This document shows, in pieces, positions 1 to 12,800 of a stretch of DNA of 64,000 nucleotides (its first letter is position 1; every line of letters starts with the position of its first letter). Both the position numbers and the translations under genes were made by a program. Origin of the DNA: Deltaproteobacteria bacterium HGW-Deltaproteobacteria-6 (GTDB lineage Bacteria; Desulfobacterota; Syntrophia; Syntrophales; Smithellaceae); the NCBI GenBank assembly GCA_002840435.1, contig PHAT01000006.1, positions 62,001 through 126,000 on the forward strand, given 5' to 3'. The notes under the pieces are model-generated. The model did no database searches. It worked only from the letters and a program-made list of their open reading frames with translations, and was not told where the DNA came from.

Positions 1-1
1 T

Positions 2-337
2 GAGCCTTTCCCCAGCGGAATAAAAGGGCGGCAAAAGACGGTCTGTATTGAGAGAGAAATCGGGATAGACTTTAATGCCCTTCAAAACAACAATAAGGAC
101 TCATACCCGTTGTTTTTCTCCGGCGTTCCGACAGGTGAACCGACGTGCGTTCCCTCCAGACCGAACGAATACACAGGCAAAAAAACGCCCGCCGACTGGG
201 ACGGTGACGGAATTCCAAACGAAAAGGACAACTGTCCGTATATTTTTAATCCAATCCGGCCAATGGACAACGGTGCACAGGCGGACTGCAACAAAGACGG
301 TATTGGCGATGCTTGTGATCCAAAGCCGTGCAGTTGA
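2..337 (+). CDS. C-terminal end of a thrombospondin type 3 repeat protein (partial)
   Basis: The frame is open from the first bases of the window to the stop at 335-337, so the start lies upstream. The visible 111 residues contain [14 protein letters not shown] and a second [11 protein letters not shown], the Asp/Asn-rich calcium-binding loops of thrombospondin type 3 repeats with their cysteine pairs. Such repeats occur in secreted or surface proteins of Bacteria, often as stalks before an anchor; here the protein simply ends after the last repeat. Whether it is cargo of the element to its right or resident sequence cannot be decided. The repeat call is firm; the function of the whole protein is unknown. 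Confidence 0.7.
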
Positions 338-401
338 TTGCAATGGCATTTCATCCGCTTATTGCAAATATATCATTATGGAATATATTGATAAAATTTA
401 A

Positions 402-1268
402 TCACGCAGCTGATGCTCTGGAGCTGCGCGTATATGGTACCGAAGGTAGTACAAGGTTGTTATAGAACATCACTTCGCTGCCACGAATACGGCTAATGTG
501 AGCAGAGTAAGAAATATCGTATTTTGCATAGGGCTCACCCTTATAAAGTTTTCTTATTTCTGGAACGTTATCATATGTAACGATCCATGGGTATTTTAGT
601 ACACGTATAAGAGCTGCAATATGTGCATGGTCACCGAGGGAGTAGTAATTTTTATATAGAGACTTACCTTTATTGAAATAGGGTGGATCAAAATATATTA
701 AGGATTTTGAGGGCAATCCTGGGATAATGGTCTTGATAATCTCACTAGCATCCCAATTAAATAATTTAATGCGGTTTTTATATTTCGCTATCAGACTTAT
801 TCGGTCGAGCATATCCTTTTTGTTGAATCTTGCATCGATCTTAAAAGGTCCATTTTGGTTTTTCCCGCCAATGACTCCAGCTTGGAGGATGCCTGAACGA
901 TTCGTTCTATTGAGGAAAAAAGTGGCAAAGCCAACATCGGTTGTCGTGAATTGTTCTGGGTGAAGATGGACTTGTTTTTGTTTATACCACACTTTCATAT
1001 TTACTGGAGTATCATGGATTTTTCTAGAAATTGTTTCCGTGTCATCGAGCACTGACTTCCAAAAAGCATAAATAAGAGCATCAATATCATTAATGACTAC
1101 TTCCCAGGCATAACCCTCAAGTAGAAGAGTTAGCGCTACAGATGAGCCTCCGGCATAAGGTTCCACATAAGTACCATCACATAAATTGTTGTGCTGAAAG
1201 AGATGTTTTATGAAAGGCGCGAGTTTTCCTTTGCCTCCAGGATACCGCAGTGGTGAATATGAATGCAT
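402..1268 (-). CDS. D12-class adenine-N6 DNA methyltransferase
   Basis: This 288-residue protein matches the Dam/D12 family, which transfers methyl from SAM to adenine N6 in a short DNA site. Visible motifs are YPGGKGK (residues 9-14 region), the SAM-binding VEPYAGG (35-41), NDIDALIYAFW (60-70), FFLNRTNRSGI (117-127) and the catalytic DPPY (194-197). The frame stays open upstream to 1418, but I chose ATG 1268 because GGAGG lies about 8 bases before it and because homology begins there with the YPGGK motif. It follows the ParB-like gene by 52 bases on the same strand. No restriction endonuclease gene is adjacent, so it may be an orphan or the modification arm of a defence system with the ParB-like protein. 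Confidence 0.85.
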   Translation of the reverse strand: MHSYSPLRYPGGKGKLAPFIKHLFQHNNLCDGTYVEPYAGGSSVALTLLLEGYAWEVVINDIDALIYAFWKSVLDDTETISRKIHDTPVNMKVWYKQKQVHLHPEQFTTTDVGFATFFLNRTNRSGILQAGVIGGKNQNGPFKIDARFNKKDMLDRISLIAKYKNRIKLFNWDASEIIKTIIPGLPSKSLIYFDPPYFNKGKSLYKNYYSLGDHAHIAALIRVLKYPWIVTYDNVPEIRKLYKGEPYAKYDISYSAHISRIRGSEVMFYNNLVLPSVPYTRSSRASAA

Positions 1269-1320
1269 TTCGCTGGCCTCCAAACCTGATATATCAAAAC
1301 AATATGATTCTGGCCAGCGT

Positions 1321-2652
1321 TTATTTCCAGCACGCGCATAAAAAGAAATAAATATTATCCCAAAGTGTACATACATGACGTGGTTCAGGTGTGTATGTAG
1401 AATGGTGTACCCAGGCATTAAGTGTATGTACAGAGATCAGTTCTTCGCTATTTCTCATTTTATTGAGTAGTTCAAATTGCTTCTTGTTTATTTTCCCTAA
1501 TGCCTTCATTTTGCCTGCAACCTTTGTAATGCAGACATGCAATTTATCATTTGAGATATCGACTTCGTTATTATTTGCATAATGTTCAACACTTTGTTCA
1601 AGAACCAAACGAACAAGTATACCCGCAGCAATCGGTGCCTCTCTTACATCAATTTTTGATGTCAATTCCACAAGAATGTTATTGAGCTTAGTCTCTGTAG
1701 TTGGTGTAGGCAATCCAGCTTTGGGCTGTATAACTCGCTTCCGATCCCAAGAGGCTTTTGCTCTCGCAGTATACTTTGGCGCACCGGTTGTTGATGTGCC
1801 TGCGGCTTGCACTCCAGTTTTCGGTTTAATAGGATTGTTTATGGGTGTTGGTTCTTTAAATCCTCTACTCTCAAAAAAATCATTAATATATTTTGCCCGG
1901 TCTTCAGGATGATAAATATCTTTTACCATTAGTTTGTTTTCTTTCCGAGTGAAGTCAGTCACGATTTCCCTTAAAAGATTGAAAATTTCATTCTCTTTGG
2001 CAACAAACTGGAGTTCCTGTCCATTCCAATCAATCCCCAATCGCTTACTGACCTCTGTATCCTGAAAAAGGCGTTGCATATTACTTATGGATACGCTTCG
2101 CGCCTCGACGATTCCTTTCTTTTCAAGATATTCGCAAATTGCTCTAGCAAGCGGATATGTAGTTATACCGTCTACATCGGCTTGCATGTTACCCTTTTCT
2201 CTGGGGCCCCAGTCGACTTGTCCAATGCCATCTTGTGGGCCCATGTGTTCCAACTTTCTATATTCTATAATTGTGGCCTCGTCTGCTGTTAGACATTCGA
2301 CTTTTTCTGGAATCATTCTTTTTGCGGCATTGCTTTTTAAATTTCGAAAAGTTTTTTGATATTGTTCTGGTGCTTCTGCAGGATTGTTGAGAAGTTTAAT
2401 TGCAGTTATTCTTCTGTTACCATCTCTCACAACCCAGCGTTTTTGCCCATCCTTTGATATCACGATAGGTTTAGGAGAGAGGCCATTTTGCGCAATATGC
2501 CCAGCAATCTTAATCATTTTTGAACCAAATTCTTCAAACATTATGTTAATGCAGTCAATTTGACTATCAAGAGGTCCCAGTCGGTAGTTATTTTGATCAA
2601 GCATAATATCAGAAACATCGATGAGGCCAGTGCTAGTGAACTTTGAGCGCAT
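1321..2652 (-). CDS. ParB/Srx-like N-terminal domain protein with HEPN-like tail
   Basis: The protein has 443 residues. The N-terminal 90 residues resemble the ParB/sulfiredoxin nuclease-like fold, with NGLSPKPIVIS followed by DGNRRITAIKLL (77-88), the equivalent of the ParB GERR box. The middle is a low-complexity Thr/Pro/Lys linker (about 265-325). The last 110 residues are helical and end with LNAWVHHSTYTPEP, reminiscent of helical HEPN-like tails of defence proteins; this last assignment is weak. A good ribosome site (AAGGAG) precedes ATG 2652. It lacks the DNA-binding HTH of chromosome-partition ParB, has no parA neighbour, and is paired with a D12 methylase, so a modification or defence role is more likely than segregation. 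Confidence 0.6.
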   Translation of the reverse strand: MRSKFTSTGLIDVSDIMLDQNNYRLGPLDSQIDCINIMFEEFGSKMIKIAGHIAQNGLSPKPIVISKDGQKRWVVRDGNRRITAIKLLNNPAEAPEQYQKTFRNLKSNAAKRMIPEKVECLTADEATIIEYRKLEHMGPQDGIGQVDWGPREKGNMQADVDGITTYPLARAICEYLEKKGIVEARSVSISNMQRLFQDTEVSKRLGIDWNGQELQFVAKENEIFNLLREIVTDFTRKENKLMVKDIYHPEDRAKYINDFFESRGFKEPTPINNPIKPKTGVQAAGTSTTGAPKYTARAKASWDRKRVIQPKAGLPTPTTETKLNNILVELTSKIDVREAPIAAGILVRLVLEQSVEHYANNNEVDISNDKLHVCITKVAGKMKALGKINKKQFELLNKMRNSEELISVHTLNAWVHHSTYTPEPRHVCTLWDNIYFFLCACWK

Positions 2653-2993
2653 TGATTATCTCCTTTGATATGATTTGGTAATGAATGCATTTTTTAAGGC
2701 TTATTTTAAGTTATGAGAATATAAGGAAATATTGTTTTTAAGTCAATATCATTCTTTCGGAATCTTAAATATCAATCTGAATACCATGGGAATTTTCATC
2801 CAAGTATTAATTGAATATTTTAAGATAGAAAATTATAAGAGGCACCGATTTATTATTTAACCTTATTGCGATTTAGCCGGCAACCAACTGGCCATATAGT
2901 AGATTCTATTTTTCGAATATCTAAATAAATTAATTTGAAGTAATCTCATTTTTCGCTATAATACAGGCGATTAATGCACCAAAGGAATTCAAC
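2653..2993. other. AT-rich divergent intergenic region
   Basis: These 341 bases separate the ParB-like gene (leftward) and the first DUF2384 gene (rightward). The stretch is very AT-rich and I see no coding frame. It contains the leftward ribosome site of the ParB-like gene and a strong rightward promoter at 2935-2962. I found no convincing long repeat. Confidence 0.5.
2935..2962 (+). promoter_or_regulatory. Sigma-70-type promoter of the DUF2384 gene
   Basis: TTGAAG at 2935-2940 and a perfect TATAAT at 2957-2962 are 16 bases apart. The gene starts 31 bases after the -10 box, with AAGGA as its ribosome site. Confidence 0.65.
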
Positions 2994-3182
2994 ATGGATA
3001 TTACTCATGTGATGAAAAGATGCGAGGAAGTTTTTGGAGATCCCAATGCCTGCACAGAATGGCTTAGATCGGAAGTCATAGCCCTGGGCGGCAAGACACC
3101 CATGGAAATGATGAAAACCGACACCGGTATTGATTTGGTGTTGACGGAACTTGGACGAATCGAGCACGGTATCGTATCTTAA
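2994..3182 (+). CDS. Short DUF2384 (ParS/MbcA/Xre toxin-binding domain) protein
   Basis: This 62-residue protein consists only of the C-terminal domain found in Xre/ParS/MbcA antitoxins of RES-toxin systems. The pattern VFGDPNACTEWLRS, then ALGGKTPMEMM, then LGRIEHGI is the classic DUF2384 signature. Known antitoxins of this type are about 130-150 residues because an HTH domain precedes it; here that domain is absent and the start is well supported by a TATAAT promoter and ribosome site. No RES toxin gene is adjacent. It has a paralogue at 4560-4772. It could be a stand-alone antitoxin or a regulator of a distant toxin. Confidence 0.7.
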   Translation: MDITHVMKRCEEVFGDPNACTEWLRSEVIALGGKTPMEMMKTDTGIDLVLTELGRIEHGIVS

Positions 3183-3193
3183 TTGTTTATAGC

Positions 3194-3253
3194 GCCCCTG
3201 GCAGTACGCTTACCCAACTTATTCAGGGTATGTCCGAGCCTAGGGGCTTTTTT
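3194..3253 (+). terminator. Terminator after the DUF2384 gene
   Basis: GCCCCT at 3194-3199 pairs with AGGGGC at 3242-3247 and is followed by six T. The loop holds a second small stem, TACCC (3211-3215) with GGGTA (3226-3230), so the structure is a two-stem hairpin rather than a simple one. Confidence 0.55.
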
Positions 3254-3422
3254 CAAGGTGCGGATTAATCAGGTCCATTATCCACCCCAAAAGTCGGCGT
3301 TTTTAACGATTTCAAACGTAGTATGCTTGTAAGTATTCAATATTATATGTGATCATGTAGTTTTAGGCGATCTGCAAGTTCAAATTTCAAACTGCCTAAA
3401 AAGCGAAATGAAGGAGAAATAA

Positions 3423-3635
3423 ATGGGGAAAAAAGGAAATGTTTCACAAGATGAACCATTGCTTGAAGCCATCGAAGGTCTAGTGAAGGCAGCCAAACAA
3501 GCGAATAAGGCTCTGGAAAAAGGTATAAAGGATGCGGAAGCTGTGGTGAAAGAAATCCGGAAAAAGAAGAAGAAATATGACCTGAAGAAAATGCTGGCCG
3601 GGTATAAGGGGGAGATGCCGAAGCTGCTATGGTAG
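3423..3635 (+). CDS. Small lysine-rich helical protein, unknown
   Basis: I do not recognise this 70-residue protein. It is very rich in Lys, Glu and Ala and should form one long amphipathic helix, probably a coiled coil, from about residue 10 to 50 (EAIEGLVKAAKQANKALEKG, then a run of Lys). A clear AAGGAG lies before the ATG. It has its own leader of about 170 bases after the preceding terminator. No toxin or antitoxin family fits clearly. As accessory DNA with a good start site I think it is real, but its role is unknown. Confidence 0.5.
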   Translation: MGKKGNVSQDEPLLEAIEGLVKAAKQANKALEKGIKDAEAVVKEIRKKKKKYDLKKMLAGYKGEMPKLLW

Positions 3636-3722
3636 CTTTTTTGACATTTAAAAAGCCAATATGTATAAAAAACTGATTTCCTCGATATAATCCTAACCGA
3701 TAAAATACTGTCCGAATAATTC

Positions 3723-3809
3723 ATGAAACCATTTGATTTAAGCATTAATCAATTGGTGAAGGATATTGATGTCCCACACTGCAGGATCAACGAGATCATT
3801 TCCAGTTAA
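3723..3809 (+). pseudogene. HigA-type antitoxin stub
   Basis: Translation from ATG 3723 gives 28 residues, MKPFDLSINQLVKDIDVPHC followed by RINEIISS and a stop. This matches the HTH core of HigA antitoxins (typically ...LSQNQLARDLGVP..RINEIV). Intact HigA proteins are about 95-100 residues, so both the upstream part and the C-terminal half are missing. No higB is visible. I read it as a remnant of a HigBA module. Confidence 0.45.
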
Positions 3810-3860
3810 CAGTAATCATTCACTAAAGACTTTCCTGAATCGTGAATAATGTTTTATCCA

Positions 3861-3926
3861 ATTCCTTATCGGGAATATTCAGACAAAATGAAGGATATTT
3901 GCCATAAGTTATTCCCCATCAGGAAT
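3861..3926. repeat. Two copies of an ATTCC-N6-GGAAT palindrome
   Basis: ATTCCTTATCGGGAAT at 3861-3876 and ATTCCCCATCAGGAAT at 3911-3926 are the same 16-bp inverted repeat, 50 bp apart centre to centre (about five helical turns). They lie just before the hipA remnant. HipB operators in E. coli are of the form TATCC-N8-GGATA, so a derelict operator pair is a reasonable guess. Confidence 0.45.
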
Positions 3927-3937
3927 ATAGTGCTTGA

Positions 3938-4433
3938 CTTCATCTGTCCGATCAGAAATACGAAAGCGAAGGCGGCCCTTCTCTGAAACATTATTTTACT
4001 CTGTTACAGCAAAAAGCATACGCCCCGCCGCCAACCGTGTGGCCCTGTTGCGATGGGCGATTTTCAACTTCCTGATTGGCAACGCCGATGCACACGCCAA
4101 GAATCTGGCCATGATATTTACTGACCGAGGCCCGCGCCTGGCGCCCTTTTACGATCTGATCTGCACGCAGGTCTATCCGGATTTGCTGAGAAGTCGGCTA
4201 TGAGGATAGGCGGTGAGAACAGGCCATCCTGGATACGGCAGAAACACTGGGAGAAACTGGGCAAAGCCGTTGCCATCAAATCAGGTCTTATTTTAAAAAC
4301 ATTGAAGGAAATGTCCGGCGACATCATTCCGGCTGCGCAAGTTCTGATGAACGATTTCCAAAAAACACACGGAAGCTCCGGAATAATTGAAAAGATTATG
4401 GCCGTTATTGAAAAACGTGCAGGTGGAGTCTAA
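3938..4433 (+). pseudogene. hipA serine/threonine kinase remnant, two frameshifts
   Basis: Three frames must be joined to read a HipA C-terminal half. The first (from 3938) gives DQKYESEGGPSLKHYFTLL. The second (about 4018-4190) gives LLRWAIFNFLIGNADAHAKN with the catalytic Asn-x-x-x-x-His-x-Lys-Asn region and APFYDL. The third (from about 4185) gives AEKSAMRIGGE and the C-terminal helices to the stop at 4431-4433. The second shift fits loss of one G near 4187, restoring Asp-Leu-Ala-Glu-Lys. The N-terminal half and hipB are absent. HipA phosphorylates glutamyl-tRNA synthetase and causes dormancy; this copy cannot be functional. Confidence 0.8.
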
Positions 4434-4493
4434 AAATTTCCCCGCCCGCAAACGCGGTTATAAAAATGGCAGAGTGTTTAACTTTCTAAGGGA

Positions 4494-4520
4494 GAACTGG
4501 TCGATATTTTCGACCAGTTC
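4494..4520. repeat. Perfect 11-bp inverted repeat with 5-base loop
   Basis: GAACTGGTCGA (4494-4504) and TCGACCAGTTC (4510-4520) are perfectly complementary around TATTT. No run of T follows on either strand, so it is not a normal terminator. It lies between the hipA remnant and the second DUF2384 gene; it may be an operator or a remnant recombination site. Confidence 0.5.
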
Positions 4521-4559
4521 ATAAGCAACATTCCCCGATTTCGGTGCGCCGAAAATTGA

Positions 4560-4772
4560 TCATGAATACACTCCCCATTCTATACGGCCTAGAAGATCTT
4601 CGACCTCCTGCGCGTTAACGTCACTTTCTGAATATTCAAGGGGCGTTTTTCCGCCAAGTGTTTTTTGGGGAGAAGAAAGCCACCGCTTTGCTTTTTCTTC
4701 GTCTCCCAAAACCTCGACGGCTCTCTGTAACAGCCTTTCATAATTAAGATAGTTTTTATTCATGGTAATCAT
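4560..4772 (-). CDS. Second short DUF2384 (ParS/MbcA-like) protein
   Basis: This protein of 70 residues (67 if the second ATG at 4763 is used) is a paralogue of the product of 2994-3182: it shares the pattern VLGDEEKAKRWL, then LGGKTPLEY and a final LLGRIEWGV. As in that gene, the N-terminal HTH domain of ParS/MbcA antitoxins is missing, and no RES-type toxin gene is next to it. The two copies face each other around the hipA and higA remnants. A stand-alone antitoxin or a regulator are both possible. Confidence 0.7.
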   Translation of the reverse strand: MITMNKNYLNYERLLQRAVEVLGDEEKAKRWLSSPQKTLGGKTPLEYSESDVNAQEVEDLLGRIEWGVYS

Positions 4773-4859
4773 ATAGCATAATCCTGCCAGATCCGCACCA
4801 ATAACTAATTAAAGATTGCTTGGTGGGCCCCAATCTATAATATACAGCCTAAGCACTTT

Positions 4860-5075
4860 CTATGATTTAAACCAAAAATAGCAAACAAAGGTTCCGCAGT
4901 ATTTGCATACGACAGTGTCGGCCATAATTGTCTTCGCGCAACTTGGACATTCCTTTACTGAGACAATATTAGCGTCAATACCTGCAATCGTTTCCTTCCT
5001 CTTACTACTGGCCAGCCCTGCAATCAAGGCTACCAACAATAATATTGCAAAAGCAATTAAGAATTCCATTTTCAC
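4860..5075 (-). CDS. Small membrane protein with zinc ribbon
   Basis: This 71-residue protein starts with one hydrophobic helix (residues 3-24) and continues with a zinc ribbon of the form CPSC...CKYC near residues 43-62. It ends abruptly with an aromatic tail. It lies 31 bases downstream of the TnsE-like gene on the same strand and could be co-transcribed. Zinc-ribbon membrane microproteins are common and not well understood; the substrate or partner is unknown. ATG 5069 is an alternative start. Confidence 0.55.
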   Translation of the reverse strand: MKMEFLIAFAILLLVALIAGLASSKRKETIAGIDANIVSVKECPSCAKTIMADTVVCKYCGTFVCYFWFKS

Positions 5076-5106
5076 TCCGCGTTAGACTTGCTTCATAGGT
5101 GAAACA

Positions 5107-6873
5107 TCAGAAAGTAACCCCCATTTTTCTAAAGGCATTTTTAACCGCTGCCTCACAGGGAATTCTTTCATAAGCAGCCGGAACATGCTTAAACACATCA
5201 GCCTTACCCGGGCATCCACCAATTAGCCGCTCAACAATACCTACCTCACGCCTGACATCAGAAAGTAGGGAACGAAGATATGGCACAAATTGCTGTTGAG
5301 AATCCAAAGTGAACACAAAGCCTCTGAGAGGTTCCTCTTTCTTTTTCACTATACGGCGCTGAATTTCCACTATATAGATATCATTATCGCTCATTACTAT
5401 TCTAACAACAAGTATGCCTCTTGGAACTTTTCCTGGTACATCAAAGAAAAGCCAGTTTCGCATTTCAGTTGTGACATTATCGTCATCGTCATCGCTAAAA
5501 GGGGTCAAGGCAATCAACTGAGGTTCTGTGTTTTCACAAAACCCGTCTTCAAAGGTAAACCAATTTATGGATTCAACAATGTCAGGATGTTTTTGTTTCA
5601 AATGGAGTATCGCATTCCACATATCCCGGAGCACACCATGTGATTCCATAATAATGCGTGAGCGAATCAAGGCAGTACCAATACCCTTTCCGGAACCATA
5701 TCGCTCGCCGGTAGCAAATGTATCCACATTAGAATCTTTAATCCAGTTTTTATAAAAAGTCTGCGATTGCAAATCTTTTTCCTTAACATCAATCACAGTC
5801 CTTGGCTTACCCAAAACAACGAAACGACGATCTTCAACCTCAACAGAAGGCTCACCATGATCCGGCTCGTCGTCACCCGTCAGATTTATAATATCAGGTA
5901 ATTTGTTTAGGACACCTATCGGTCTTCCTGGAACTATTTCTAAATTTTTCCCATCCACATTACTTAATTTATTTTGACGATCACGGCTCCGAAGAATCGG
6001 TACTCCGGCAGGATCACTGCTGCCTAAAACTTGAAGTCCTAAAAATGTCCGGCCATCATTGATCCAAAGCCCCGTGAGTCTCATTCGCGCCGGTCCCTGA
6101 AACCATGGTTTAATTTTGATAAACGCAACATTATCACTTTCGATAAAAGAAGCTTCAAGTTGAGAATATATATCCCTTGCCGTCTGTCTTGCATAATCAT
6201 CGTAAAGGATGTGCGCCAGCAGTTTAACGTCGTCATTAATCATTCTGCTTGTGAGCTTCACAAACCACTTGTCCGGCATGACAGGCATATTCAAAGGCGC
6301 GTAAAAACGTCTTTGGACTTCATTCCATGGATATGTGGTCAGTACCCTTCTGACTTCATCAGAATGGGCATAGCAGCTGGAAAAATATTCGAGGCAAGGA
6401 ACCAGCAAATTTCTGCCATCTTTTAATGTGAAATCAATTAGCCAATTCCGATCTCTGGTGTCATAGCTTAAAGGGTAGTCTTTTTGACTGATTGGACTTT
6501 GTTCGCCGTTCTGCATGGATTGTCTCGGTGAAACGATTTTCCAACCGATATTTTCGGAAAAACTTAAATCAAAGGTTTCTATTGGATAGATTACTTCCGA
6601 CTTGCTTACACCTCTTGACCATACAGATCCGATACGTAGCAACCCAAGAAGAGTGAGCGGAACATTTTGCATTTCAGTAAAACCGCCGTAGGGACCATTC
6701 CGATTTATTCTCCTAAAAAATACAACAACATTCGGAACTGACTCGGCTTTTGGATTCTTTTTTATTCCACCATACCACCATACGATATAATCATCTTTAT
6801 CTCGGAGGGTCTTTAGACTGCAAATCCGAGTTCTTGTTTTACCTAAAACGTATGCTGCCATTGCAAAAAACAT
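5107..6873 (-). CDS. Unknown 588-residue protein, possibly TnsE-like transposition protein
   Basis: I do not recognise this with certainty. Its layout recalls Tn7 TnsE (about 540 residues), which targets transposition to replicating DNA: an N-terminal beta-rich part, a central helix after a basic strand (NLLVPCLEYFSSCYAHSDEV, about residues 155-174), a middle RMRLTGLWINDG segment, an acidic linker, and a C-terminal domain with FDVP, VRIV..DIYIVEIQRR and a Gly-Gly-Cys tail. The resemblance is structural and from memory, not from an alignment. Support comes from position: it is the first gene inside the inferred transposon end in comM and is transcribed inward, as tns genes are. ATG 6861 is an alternative start. 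No tnsABCD genes accompany it. Confidence 0.4.
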   Translation of the reverse strand: MFFAMAAYVLGKTRTRICSLKTLRDKDDYIVWWYGGIKKNPKAESVPNVVVFFRRINRNGPYGGFTEMQNVPLTLLGLLRIGSVWSRGVSKSEVIYPIETFDLSFSENIGWKIVSPRQSMQNGEQSPISQKDYPLSYDTRDRNWLIDFTLKDGRNLLVPCLEYFSSCYAHSDEVRRVLTTYPWNEVQRRFYAPLNMPVMPDKWFVKLTSRMINDDVKLLAHILYDDYARQTARDIYSQLEASFIESDNVAFIKIKPWFQGPARMRLTGLWINDGRTFLGLQVLGSSDPAGVPILRSRDRQNKLSNVDGKNLEIVPGRPIGVLNKLPDIINLTGDDEPDHGEPSVEVEDRRFVVLGKPRTVIDVKEKDLQSQTFYKNWIKDSNVDTFATGERYGSGKGIGTALIRSRIIMESHGVLRDMWNAILHLKQKHPDIVESINWFTFEDGFCENTEPQLIALTPFSDDDDDNVTTEMRNWLFFDVPGKVPRGILVVRIVMSDNDIYIVEIQRRIVKKKEEPLRGFVFTLDSQQQFVPYLRSLLSDVRREVGIVERLIGGCPGKADVFKHVPAAYERIPCEAAVKNAFRKMGVTF

Positions 6874-6947
6874 CCCGATGGAAATACATTAATGAAGATT
6901 ATGAGCAATTGTGATGTAAGAGTATAACAGATTATTAATTAGTTTGG

Positions 6948-6988
6948 TACATAATTCGATAATTTCTTATTTATATCGATAAATGACA
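6948..6988 (-). repeat. Inferred transposon end with two TnsB-site-like repeats
   Basis: Read leftward from 6988 the end begins TGTCATTTATCG. Two 17-bp repeats match at 12 of 17 positions with a shared TTATCGA core: 6968-6984 and 6948-6964, 20 bp apart. Arrays of about 20-bp transposase sites near a TGT terminus are the hallmark of Tn7-type ends. Weaker AATC-containing copies may continue to about 6890. Confidence 0.5.
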
Positions 6989-7849
6989 ACCTCCGCCGAC
7001 CAGGCCGACATCGGAGATGGTGTGATGCGGTGAGCGAAAGGGTCTTACGGCAATCAGTGTTTCTCCCGAATTCAAGAGACCGGCCACCGAAAACACCTTG
7101 GTCACTTCGATGGATTCTTCAAAGGAAAGATCCGGCAATATCGTGGGCAGCCTTTTAGCCAGCATGCTTTTACCGGAACCGGGCGGACCGATCATCAACA
7201 CATTATGACCGCCGGCTGCTGCGACCTCCAGCGCCCGGAGTGCCTGCTTCTGGCCTTTGATCTCAGAAAAGTCGATATCATAAAGACGGTTTTGCTGAAA
7301 AAGATCAGCGGTGTTCAGACAAAGAGGCAAGATGGAATGCCTGCCTGACAAAAACTCGACAACATCAGGAAGCGTCTTGACGCCGTAAATATTAATACCT
7401 TCCACCATAGCCGCTTCCGCGGCGTTTTCTTCGGGCACGAAAACCGACCCGATGCCCGATTCCCTGGCTTTGAAGACGGCGGACAATACACCCCGCACCC
7501 CTTTAATGCTGCCGTCCAGAGACAATTCGCCGATAAAAAAACAACCCTGAAGAGCGGATTCTTCAATTAACTCCTCCGCCGCCAGAATGCCGACCGCAAT
7601 CGGCAGATCAAATCCTGTTCCCTCTTTGCGAATATCCGCCGGCGCCAGATTAACCGTCACGTGATTGCGAGGAAATGAGTAGCCGGAATTCTTGATAGCG
7701 GCTTTAATCCGATCCCGGCTTTCCTTCACGGACGCGTCAGGCAGGCCGACGGTGGCAAATTGCGGCAAGCCCTGGGAAACATCCACTTCCACCGATACGG
7801 GGTATGATTCCATCCCGATCACGCTCATGCTGAGCACTTTGATGAACAC
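6989..7849 (-). pseudogene. comM: comM (yifB) Mg-chelatase-like ATPase, 5' half only
   Basis: Residues 1-287 match ComM/YifB, an AAA+ helicase of natural transformation and branch migration: the N-terminal ChlI-like fold, then Walker A GPPGSGKS (221-228) and RPFRSPHHTISD before VGGG (284-287). Intact ComM has about 500 residues and continues with a proline-rich PGE segment and the Walker B FLDELPEF; both are missing. The frame runs on for five foreign residues to a stop at 6971. Without Walker B it cannot hydrolyse ATP normally. The break coincides with a TGT terminus, so insertion of a mobile element is the likely cause. No clear ribosome site stands out at 7849. Confidence 0.85.
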
Positions 7850-8027: not shown

Positions 8028-8513
8028 ATGAAAAAGCTATCACACATTAACGACACAGGCCAGGTGCAGATGGTGGATGTGACGGGCAAGGATAAGACTG
8101 TCCGCGTGGCCAAGGCGCGTGGTGTCGTGAAAATGAAAAGCGGCACGCTTCAACTTCTGGAAGAAGGCCTTCTGGCTAAAGGTAACGTGTTGACGACCGC
8201 CAAAATTGCCGGCATCATGGCGGCTAAAAAAACCGGCGAATTCATTCCGCTGTGTCATCCGCTGGGCGTGACGGGCATCGATGTCGAATTCACAATTGAC
8301 AGAAAAAACTCGCAGGTAATCATTGAAACACAGGTCCGGACGGTCGGACAAACCGGTGTGGAAATGGAAGCGCTCACAGCGGCCAGCGTCGCGGCGCTGA
8401 CCATCTATGACATGTGCAAAGCCGTGGATAAGGAAATGATCATCAGTGATATTCTGCTGCTGAAAAAAAGCGGCGGGAAAAGCGGAACGTTCATCAGAAA
8501 AACGGCAAAATAA
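8028..8513 (+). CDS. moaC: Cyclic pyranopterin monophosphate synthase MoaC
   Basis: This 161-residue protein has the usual MoaC length. MoaC converts the cyclic GTP intermediate made by MoaA into cyclic pyranopterin monophosphate in molybdenum/tungsten cofactor synthesis, in the cytoplasm as a hexamer. The family motifs are present: MVDVTGK near residue 15, the IPLCHPL segment (about 73-79), GVEMEALTAASVAALTIYDM (about 112-131) and the catalytic lysines after it. No other moa gene lies in the window. The gene stands alone apart from a membrane protein gene 14 bases downstream. Confidence 0.95.
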   Translation: MKKLSHINDTGQVQMVDVTGKDKTVRVAKARGVVKMKSGTLQLLEEGLLAKGNVLTTAKIAGIMAAKKTGEFIPLCHPLGVTGIDVEFTIDRKNSQVIIETQVRTVGQTGVEMEALTAASVAALTIYDMCKAVDKEMIISDILLLKKSGGKSGTFIRKTAK

Positions 8514-9879: not shown

Positions 9880-12800
9880 ATGCTTCCGGCTCAGTTCAAT
9901 TGCGGCTTTGCCGGATTGATGACGTGCCGCCTGCAAAAAAAGACGACGGATATCACGGCCGATCGCACCATAGCCATCCGGTGGAAAAAAATTCAAAGCG
10001 CCGGTTTACGGGCCGTCTGTGCCGAAGAAGATATCGCAGCAAAATATTTAAACGGTGTGAAAACCATCGATGATCTGGACTGCGCTGTCACGGAGCTCAA
10101 ACAGGAAGGCGCTCAGGAATTTCTTTTTTTCCAGGGCGGGCGGGCGGCGGATTTATTCCGTATCGTTCAGGAAATGAAAACTTTCCTGACGGATGAAGAG
10201 AAACGGCTGGAAGATCAGGACACCATCATCAACTCCGTCAATCTGGAAATAATCAATAGCCGGATCGTTCAGCTTAAAGACATTTGCTGGATTCTGGAAA
10301 AAGATATCCTGTCTAATCTGCAAAAGATTCTTACGCTGACGGGCGCCAGAAATATCCCGGCGGTCACACCGGCCGCCTTCCGAAAATATCGGAAGCTGAA
10401 TCTGCTTCTAAACGCGCTGGATCGTCTGGAAGTCAGGGGACGGGACTCGGCGGGCATCCAACTGAACTTCATCCTTAAAGATAATAACGAAATGCAGGGC
10501 ATCTTCGAGCAAATCCGGGAAAACGGACTGGCTGAAGATTATCGGGAACGGACAAAAAAAGGCGATCTGCTCAACCAGACCATTTTTATCGCAGCCGGAC
10601 GGAAAGATGATGCCGGGAGCACCAGTGTTACATTTACCTATAAAACCTTCTCCATCGTCGGCGAACTGGGACGCAATGTGGCCGACTTGAGAAACACCAT
10701 TCAACGCGACCGGATCCTGCAATGTTTTGCGGGAAGCGAAGCAATTTGTGAAACGGCATTGACGCATACCCGCTGGGCGTCCGTGGGCTCCATCACCGAG
10801 GAGAATTGTCATCCGGTGAATAATTACACCACCGGTCAAGCCATTCCCGTCTATCCCCGCTATCCCGGCGCCGAGGCGCAGATCAACGTGGTTTTAAACG
10901 GGGACATTGACAACTATCCCGCGCTCAGACAAACACTCGAGGAAGGCGGCGATTTGATCGCCCCTGCCGTCACAACGGATACTAAAATCATTCCACTTCA
11001 AATCGAAAAATATCTCAAGGCGGGTGAAAAGCTGTCTGACGCATTCCGTCTGGCCGTCAATGATTTCGAAGGATCGCACGCCATCGCCATGCAGAGCAGT
11101 CTGGAACCCGGCAAAATGTTTCTGGCCCTGAAAGGAAGCGGCCAGGCCATTTTTGTGGGAATCAATGCCGACCAGTACATGTTTTCGTCAGAGCTCTACG
11201 GACTGGTGGAAGTCATGCCGCGTTTTATCAAGATGAACGGTGAAACAGGCAACGGCGCAGCGGGTGGACAAATCTTTATTCTGGATCAAAACCAAGGCGG
11301 CGGCCTGGCCGGCATCACCGCCTGCTTTTATGACGGCAAACCCATTGCATTGGCAGACGGCCTTCTTCAGACGGCGGAGATTACCACAAGGGACATCGAC
11401 CGCAGCAGCTACCCGCATTATTTCCTCAAAGAAATTTCCGAATCCGCTCTGTCCATTAAAAGAACCCTGCGAGGCAAATACCGCATCGCCGCCAGTCAAT
11501 CTGCCGCGCATGTCACATTTAACCTGGGGCCGGATATCGTTCCTGCCGCCGTGCAAAAAGGGCTTCAAACCGGTTTGATTAAAAACATCATCGTCATTGG
11601 TCATGGAACGGCGGCAGTAGCGGGACAGGTCGTGGCCGATGCCTTATCCCATTATCTCAAAGACAGCGGCCTCAATATCCTGGCACGGGTCGCATCGGAA
11701 TTAAGCGGCTTCGGTTTGAAAGACGATTTGTCCGACACGCTCGTCATCCCGATCACCCAGTCCGGCACGACCACTGATACGAACCGTGCCGTAGCCATGG
11801 CGAACGAGCGAGGCGCGTATATTATCTCCATCGTCAACCGCCGCCAGTCGGATATCACCGCAAAGTCGCACGGCGTATTTTACACCAGCGACGGACGCGA
11901 CATTGAAATGTCGGTCGCCTCCACCAAAGCTTTCTACGGCCAGATTGTCGCCGGGCAGGTGCTGGCTTTGTTTTTTGCTCAGCTTCTGGGGAAGCACACC
12001 GACAAGGACATCGCCGCGGCACTCAAGCAGCTACAATCGGCGCCGCGCCTGATGAATCGACTCTTCGAACGCCGCGACGAGATTGCCGCCTCTGTTAAAA
12101 CAGCCGCCGGTAAAAGATTCTGGGCGATTGTGGGCAGCGGCCCCAATAAAGCGGCGGCCGATGAGATACGCATCAAGCTTTCCGAGCTTTGCTATAAAAC
12201 GATTTCTTCCGATATCGTGGAAAATAAAAAACATATCGACCTGTCCGCAGAACCGCTTATTCTGGTGTGCGCGTCCGGTAATCCTCAAACCGTCGCGGAG
12301 GATGTCGTCAAAGACGTGGCCATCTTTAAAGCGCATAAAGCAGCGGTCATCGTCTTTGCCGATGAAGGCGATCACCGGTTTGACCAAATTGCCGACGCGG
12401 TCATTGCCATCCCCGTCGCGTCCGGACCGCTGCCGGTGATTCTCAATACCATGGCCGGCCATTTGTGGGGCTATTATGCGGCCCGCGCCATCGATGACGA
12501 AGCGCAAATTTTCCGTGAATTTCGAGGCCGCCTGATGACGGAACTGGCGCAAAGGACTCAAAAAAAACTGTCCATTTTTGATATGATCGCCGACCTTTCC
12601 TTCCGCAGGATGATTAATGAATTTTACGCCCTCTTTAACTTTCACCGCCATGGTGGAGCTTTTGGCATGATGGGAGGCAAAACCATTGCGGACCTGCTGC
12701 TTTTGTTGAAATATGCGGCAGGCAAACTGCCGCTGCAGGATATCCGTCAGGAATTCAAATGCGAAGCGGATCTGGTTTCACCATTTGATCTTCTGGACGT

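Follow-up and report, generated by a model that had tools for sequence, protein, structure and literature searches.

The Tn6022 family, which includes the AbaR-type islands and the class III transposons (TniCABDE plus orf4, or TnsABC-TniQ-TnsF-TnsE), was seen in the present analysis mostly in Acinetobacter, Pseudomonas, Halomonas and their relatives. As described in Faure et al. 2023 (PMC10293859), TnsF, formerly orf3/tniE, is a protein of 498 aa with zinc fingers in its first 199 aa, and is encoded in an operon with a 369-aa TniQ. It binds comM DNA via a region in the Walker B, and transposition in E. coli requires every one of the five proteins TnsA, TnsB, TnsC, TniQ and TnsF. A report on Tn6929, a Tn6022-related element of Acinetobacter (PMC12904642), describes 26-bp repeats and 5-bp duplications at the comM location discussed here, the duplication being GCCAC, and calls comM a hotspot. 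Prototypic Tn7 is directed to glmS by TnsD, according to a review (PMC11406308), where TnsE homologs are said to be almost universal in glmS- and comM-targeting elements.

We have analyzed a window of 64,000 nucleotides corresponding to C6:62001-126000 of a deltaproteobacterial genome (G000), a draft in 53 contigs with 4.16% estimated contamination. The initial annotation of this DNA had suggested that a Tn7-like element interrupts comM. We consider it about 95% probable that comM gives way at the break to the right end of a transposon of Tn6022 type and Tn7-like character, some 92.5 kb in length, that inserted once into comM. The element is new to the Tn6022 family; its mechanism and site are already known.

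The comM break and its two junctions

The features of the window that bear on the insertion are as follows.

1..6988, no strand: window part of the element (right-end 7 kb), continuing via C6:1-62000 and C12:7993-31464
1..337 (C6:59728-62337), plus: 3' end of the gene for an 869-aa cargo protein, uracil-DNA glycosylase (UDG) by phmmer and amidohydrolase by Pfam
402..1418, minus: cargo, PD-Lambda-5_B-like D12 adenine methyltransferase (E 1.6e-115)
1321..2652, minus: cargo, PD-Lambda-5_A-like defense protein (PADLOC, E 3.5e-83)
5107..6873, minus: tnsE of Tn6022 type, 588 aa, from the fold match of its predicted C-terminal domain to TnsE
6963..6988, minus: right terminal inverted repeat, TGTCATTTATCGATATAAATAAGAAA reading inward, 22/26 match with the C12 left end
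6989..6993, no strand: target-site duplication ACCTC, with its second copy at C12:7988-7992
6989..7849, minus: comM 5' part, codons 1-287; C12 has the 3' part, which ends there at 7319
8028..8513, plus: moaC-like gene of the chromosomal flank, named by eye, which adjoins comM in relatives too

The initial annotation placed the break in comM after the VGGG codons, passing into TGT, and this is exact to the base. The gene, on the minus strand, breaks at 6988/6989 directly after ...GLVGGG, then TGTCATTTATCGATATAAATAAGAA. From base 6988 downward the sequence is foreign, starting TGTCATTTATCG when read in the comM sense. Within the window, comM has a match to ChlI and another to the Mg_chelatase domain, of which it covers the first half, and the insertion point lies between the VGGG codons and the Walker B stretch LFLDELPEF. 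A TIGR00368 search of the host genome located positions 1-284 of the comM model on C6, the contig of the window, and 282-499 on a second contig, C12. Of the six matches in all, the other four reach no better than E 5e-10 and are weak; no intact comM was found by this search. Both an intact copy in the strain and the loss of the 3' half, either of which would speak against an insertion, are thereby ruled out.

On C12, an inverted copy of the element end and ACCTC stand ahead of the 3' half, just where the annotation had suggested looking for them. The C12 junction reads ...GGCATCTG-ACCTC-TGTCATTTATTGAAATAAG... and the window junction ...TTATATCGATAAATGACA-ACCTC-CGCCGACC..., so that the same five base pairs stand at both. 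When the flanks are joined in silico with a single ACCTC the empty site is one open comM frame. The terminal inverted repeats agree at 22 of their first 26 bases; compared with the left end, every 26-mer elsewhere in the element, whichever its strand, scores 19/26 or lower. The end motif TGTCATTTAT was found by motif search at the two ends of the element only. The TGT...ACA ends with their repeats and the 5-bp duplication bear out a Tn7-like element in comM. The ACCGC duplication that the initial annotation gives for the Acinetobacter islands was not traced in an open-access literature search for ACCGC with comM and Tn6022.

The genes flanking comM are informative. Among 15 intact loci of relatives, ilvE is beside comM in 14 and moaC in nine (by tblastn, the fetched stretches being short). 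In the host genome the half of comM on C6 is accompanied by moaC and the half on C12 by ilvE, and the ilvE-comM-moaC order of the relatives fits a simple insertion. A chromosomal rearrangement, or recombination between two elements such that the 92 kb is not one transposition unit, would also leave the comM halves on separate contigs, and might account for the biosynthetic genes among the cargo and for a G+C content that ranges from 0.385 to 0.539 along the stretch (3-kb steps). Against this stand the same 5-bp repeat at both halves, an empty site that reads through, the flanking gene order of a simple insertion and an end motif confined to the two ends of the element. Moreover, CysW (TIGR02140, E 1e-60 or better), encoded in the sulfate cluster of the cargo, was found in the host genome alone among 51 genomes of the bacterial family, a count that applies to the CysW transporter type alone. 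The sulfate cluster is thus no relocated part of the family's core genome. We regard rearrangement as very unlikely, and a single insertion as the better account.

Since this is a draft genome with some estimated contamination, C12 might derive from another organism and have been brought in by assembly or binning. Against this, the comM half on C12 restores the frame of the C6 half exactly and is followed by ilvE, as in relatives, and the G+C content of the C12 flank (0.501) is close to that of window 7001-64000 (0.499). An artefact of this kind can be given hardly any weight.

Transposition genes and comparison with described elements

Reading inward from the C12 end, tnsA, tnsB, tnsC and tniQ lie in that order at C12:8109-12700 (Pfam), followed by tnsF. 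TnsA is matched with E 2.8e-19 and 2.7e-9, TnsC (TniB) with E 4.6e-74 and TniQ, of 376 aa, with E 1.8e-20; in TnsB, Mu-transpos_C is above its cut-off and rve below its own. The tnsF ATG at 12697 overlaps the end of tniQ at 12700 by four bases. On sequence, the encoded protein matches TnsF, with probable zinc fingers followed by a putative recombinase-derived part. An alignment of five sequences has 12 invariant CxxC pairs within the first 185 residues. The protein is 49% identical to that of a Methylobacter plasmid, 46% to that of another genome of the same phylum (G040), and 39% to those of a Pseudomonas putida plasmid and an A. baumannii record.

The 588-aa protein at the window end has no match in Pfam or NCBIfam, and a sequence search of the PDB gave a match at chance level alone (E 0.43). 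Its relatives occur in 27 plasmid records (tblastn), and six of the 15 records listed for it are also among the 25 listed for TnsF. An AlphaFold2 model built from 14 sequences (mean pLDDT 71.8, pTM 0.56) matches the C-terminal domain of TnsE with Z = 12.4 (5d17), 12.2 (5d16) and 12.1 (9d5l), the next entry being at 3.5. Foldseek ranks 1-7 are all TnsE, with modest E-values of 0.006-0.05. Judged by its plasmid relatives and its predicted structure, the protein is TnsE. The N-terminal part of the model gives weak rows to RPA and similar proteins (Z 2.5-3.2), in keeping with possible domains of the PriB-like kind that PMC10293859 describes.

A mechanism can be proposed from homology to the Acinetobacter johnsonii element that has been studied experimentally. 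TnsF, presumably a catalytically dead zinc-finger protein that derives from a tyrosine recombinase, would bind comM at its conserved Walker B stretch and recruit TniQ. TniQ together with TnsC would summon the TnsA/TnsB transposase, which would excise the element at its TGT...ACA ends and insert it with a 5-bp stagger, from which the ACCTC repeat would result. A second route, into replicating plasmids, would depend on TnsE. The element is probably still active.

The element shares with the Tn6022 family its gene set and order, a tnsE on the opposite strand, TGT...ACA ends, a 5-bp duplication and the same base of comM. It differs in that its TnsF is just 39% identical to that of the A. baumannii record, in its length and its cargo of metal, defense and sulfate-assimilation genes, and in a host that belongs to another phylum than most of the members seen here. 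An open-access literature search gave nothing on Tn6022 with Deltaproteobacteria. With prototypic Tn7 it has in common the TnsA plus TnsB transposase, TnsC, a TniQ-domain protein and TnsE, but Tn7 is targeted by TnsD whereas this element carries a short TniQ and TnsF.

Other classes of element were considered and set aside. The insertion is inside comM, and not at the glmS attachment site of prototype Tn7. The Tn5053/Tn402 group is usually defined by the absence of TnsA, and its targets are resolution sites; our element has TnsA and its target is comM. Tsy elements have a tyrosine recombinase and an HTH gene, no Tn7 genes and no canonical repeats, while our element has Tn7 genes, ends in inverted repeats and is flanked by a 5-bp duplication. 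A serine-recombinase island would have a large serine recombinase beside the comM junction; in our element, tnsA and tnsE are the first genes of appreciable size at the two ends.

TnsF loci and interrupted comM genes in other genomes

We scanned named genomes by TnsF alignment, obtaining 52 loci from 77 pattern matches with patterns that favor close relatives. The 3' part of comM lies ~5 kb before tnsF in 41 of these. ACA is at exactly the expected base of comM in 37 of the 41; the other four have different ends, L046 being shifted by one base, L053 having AGA, and L080 and L094 TCA. The initial annotation had spoken of a site analogous to that of AbaR/Tn6022. Its choice of comM stands, but the word analogous is too weak, since the base is the Tn6022 family's own. 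Six loci without comM (L048, L051, L064, L084, L093 and L096) have less than 5 kb upstream. In five more (L057, L058, L061, L092 and L095) comM was not found despite ~10 kb upstream, and TnsF alone is therefore no proof of a comM site. The duplication of the window (GAGGT in the comM sense) was read in L087 too. A tnsE homolog is present in the fetched stretch of 15 of the 52 loci, in all 15 on the strand opposite tnsF. L048 is in a metagenome-assembled genome labeled Candidatus Riflebacteria, on an 8.8-kb contig, which means one more phylum or else a mistake in binning.

Among 395 sampled genomes of the host phylum, TnsF was convincing in the host and in G040 only, with weak matches in four others (E 2e-4 to 1e-3). 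That the host is a deltaproteobacterium, as the initial annotation had it, agrees with the phylum that it shares with G040, also a deltaproteobacterium. The G040 element lies at the same comM base, with the duplication GCGGG. Its proteins are 71% (TnsA), 62% (TnsB), 80% (TnsC), 41% (TniQ), 46% (TnsF) and 39% (TnsE) identical to those of our element, but it is ~21 kb long with different cargo. This includes a DNase II-like protein (L020:324-1841, G040:C11; Pfam E 4.9e-20), whose N-terminus looks signal-like when judged by eye.

We made a tree of 41 TnsF proteins comprising our own, that of one plasmid and 39 from the scan, for which 13 of the 52 loci were dropped by hand, some as partial or near-duplicate sequences, with no strict rule. 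Our TnsF is placed, with weak support (85/79), beside a branch that contains Pseudomonas and L053. That of G040 is found elsewhere in the tree, on a branch (100/100) that it shares with Gallionella, Rhodoferax and Methylobacter. From these different branches the two deltaproteobacterial elements look like separate arrivals. With our element, TnsF-guided, comM-seeking transposons, best known from Acinetobacter resistance islands, occur in an unrelated phylum as well, and the base of insertion is identical. The earlier proposal that the Walker B codons of comM serve different species as a conserved anchor gains support from this. The host, size and cargo of the element are of moderate interest.

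In the bacterial family of the host, 46 of the 51 genomes have matches to comM (E 1e-15). By our own sorting the gene is essentially full length in 33, interrupted by other DNA in six (G000, G311, G407, G400, G398 and G030), cut at contig ends in six (G411, G416, G428, G420, G435 and G418) and has an internal gap in one (G395). A break at the codon seen here with no element was found in none of the 46, the six cut at contig ends included in that number. Both halves are on one contig in G311 (C27:108554-126829), G407 (C207:17028-24846) and G030 (its own C6:500690-531414). They are on two contigs in G400 (C111/C139) and G398 (C94/C28), where an insertion is accordingly presumed. The breaks are at about codon 220, before Walker A, in G311, G407 and G400, at about 306 in Walker B in G398, and at about 353 in G030.

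A large serine recombinase (Pfam Resolvase plus Recombinase) adjoins the break in G311 (analyzed over 500 of 606 aa), G407, G398 and G030; none was seen in the fetched part of G400. These insertions share the target gene with our element but have unrelated machinery and other positions, and the insertion of G030, which is in another genus, is not related to our Tn7-like element. Their recombinases are in line with Durrant et al. An open-access literature search gave nothing on comM with serine integrase and integration site. The observations suggest that several unrelated integration systems use comM within one bacterial family, which agrees with earlier reports of comM or its homologs as a hotspot.

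With comM interrupted in five other genomes of the family, four of them having such a recombinase beside it, and with Tsy elements also targeting comM (PMC10293859), the gene in our host might have been broken by a large serine recombinase or by a Tsy-type tyrosine-recombinase element, carrying the Tn7-like genes as passengers. However, going inward from the ends, the first gene of appreciable size is tnsA on C12 and tnsE in the window, no recombinase is beside either junction in the ORF lists (by eye), and the TGT...ACA repeats and 5-bp duplication are at the exact Tn6022 position. The likelihood of this is minimal, and insertion by the Tn7-like machinery remains our reading.

Extent and cargo of the element

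The element of ~92.5 kb is made up of C12:7993-31464 (23,472 bases) and C6:1-68988 (68,988 bases). We infer one join between them, within the element, no single contig spanning the whole. The end of C12 and the start of C6 are both inside a gene for a heavy-metal P-type ATPase, the C6 start encoding the part up to QAPITGES and the C12 end the part from ETGSFEYRVTAE. A second ATPase copy at C6:5640-8239 aligns to both parts end to end, except for the first 41 bases of C6. The N-terminal part occurs just twice in the genome, both times on C6, and the second copy already has its own C-terminal part. Most likely, therefore, the orphan halves on C12 and C6 belong together. Presumably about 18 codons are missing at the join, as estimated by comparison with other ATPase sequences of the family. 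The second copy, which is near the one that spans the contig ends, is of zinc/cadmium type and is split into two frames.

The metal cargo comprises copper- and zinc/cadmium-type P-type ATPases, a CusA/CzcA-type RND efflux protein (NCBIfam) and ArsR (Pfam). A cluster of ~20 kb at C6:28000-48000 contains sulfate-uptake and sulfur-assimilation genes. CysP, CysW, CysA, CysN, CysD and CysH are above the family cut-offs and a sulfite-reductase-like protein is below them; the cluster also encodes a ThiF/MoeB protein, sulfhydrylase-family enzymes, a cysteine-synthase-type PALP protein and SOR/SNZ. The element brings a pathway of sulfate uptake and assimilation into a lineage in which CysW was found in no other of the 51 genomes. 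In the open-access literature, a search for Tn7-like elements with sulfate assimilation led to one paper, on Metallosphaera.

The 869-aa protein has a signal-like N-terminus by eye. Its uracil-DNA glycosylase domain was found by phmmer against PDB chains (E 6e-31 to 1flz) and is unreported by Pfam at E 0.001; in the counterpart from G030, Pfam reports UDG under the cut-off only. The N-terminal part is 70% identical over 337 aa to the G030 protein, alone among the 51 genomes of the family. The glycosylase domain itself is present in two of the 51 (E 1e-5), again G000 and G030, and is inside the comM insertion in both. A second match between these two insertions is an antitoxin/peptidase-like protein (27% identity, E 2e-29), and no further ORF is common to them at E 1e-6. 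Comparison with G407 gave one match, located in the G407 flank outside the insertion, and with G040 the transposition genes alone match. An open-access literature search found no paper on a secreted, extracellular or periplasmic uracil-DNA glycosylase.

It could be imagined that elements settling in comM block natural transformation, both by destroying comM and by the convergent carriage of enzymes against outside DNA. Such enzymes would be the exported-looking glycosylase protein of the G000 and G030 insertions and the DNase II-like protein in the comM element of G040. We think this block on transformation improbable. Two cases of a shared glycosylase are few, and may be due to chance or to a common donor.

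Apart from the PD-Lambda-5 pair, PADLOC matched individual genes in the right arm of the element as capP/RmrA-like, PD-Lambda-2_B and E1-E2-like. At C6:57893-59601 a ThiF-family protein with DUF6791 and its small neighbor resemble E1-E2 type defense genes in PADLOC.
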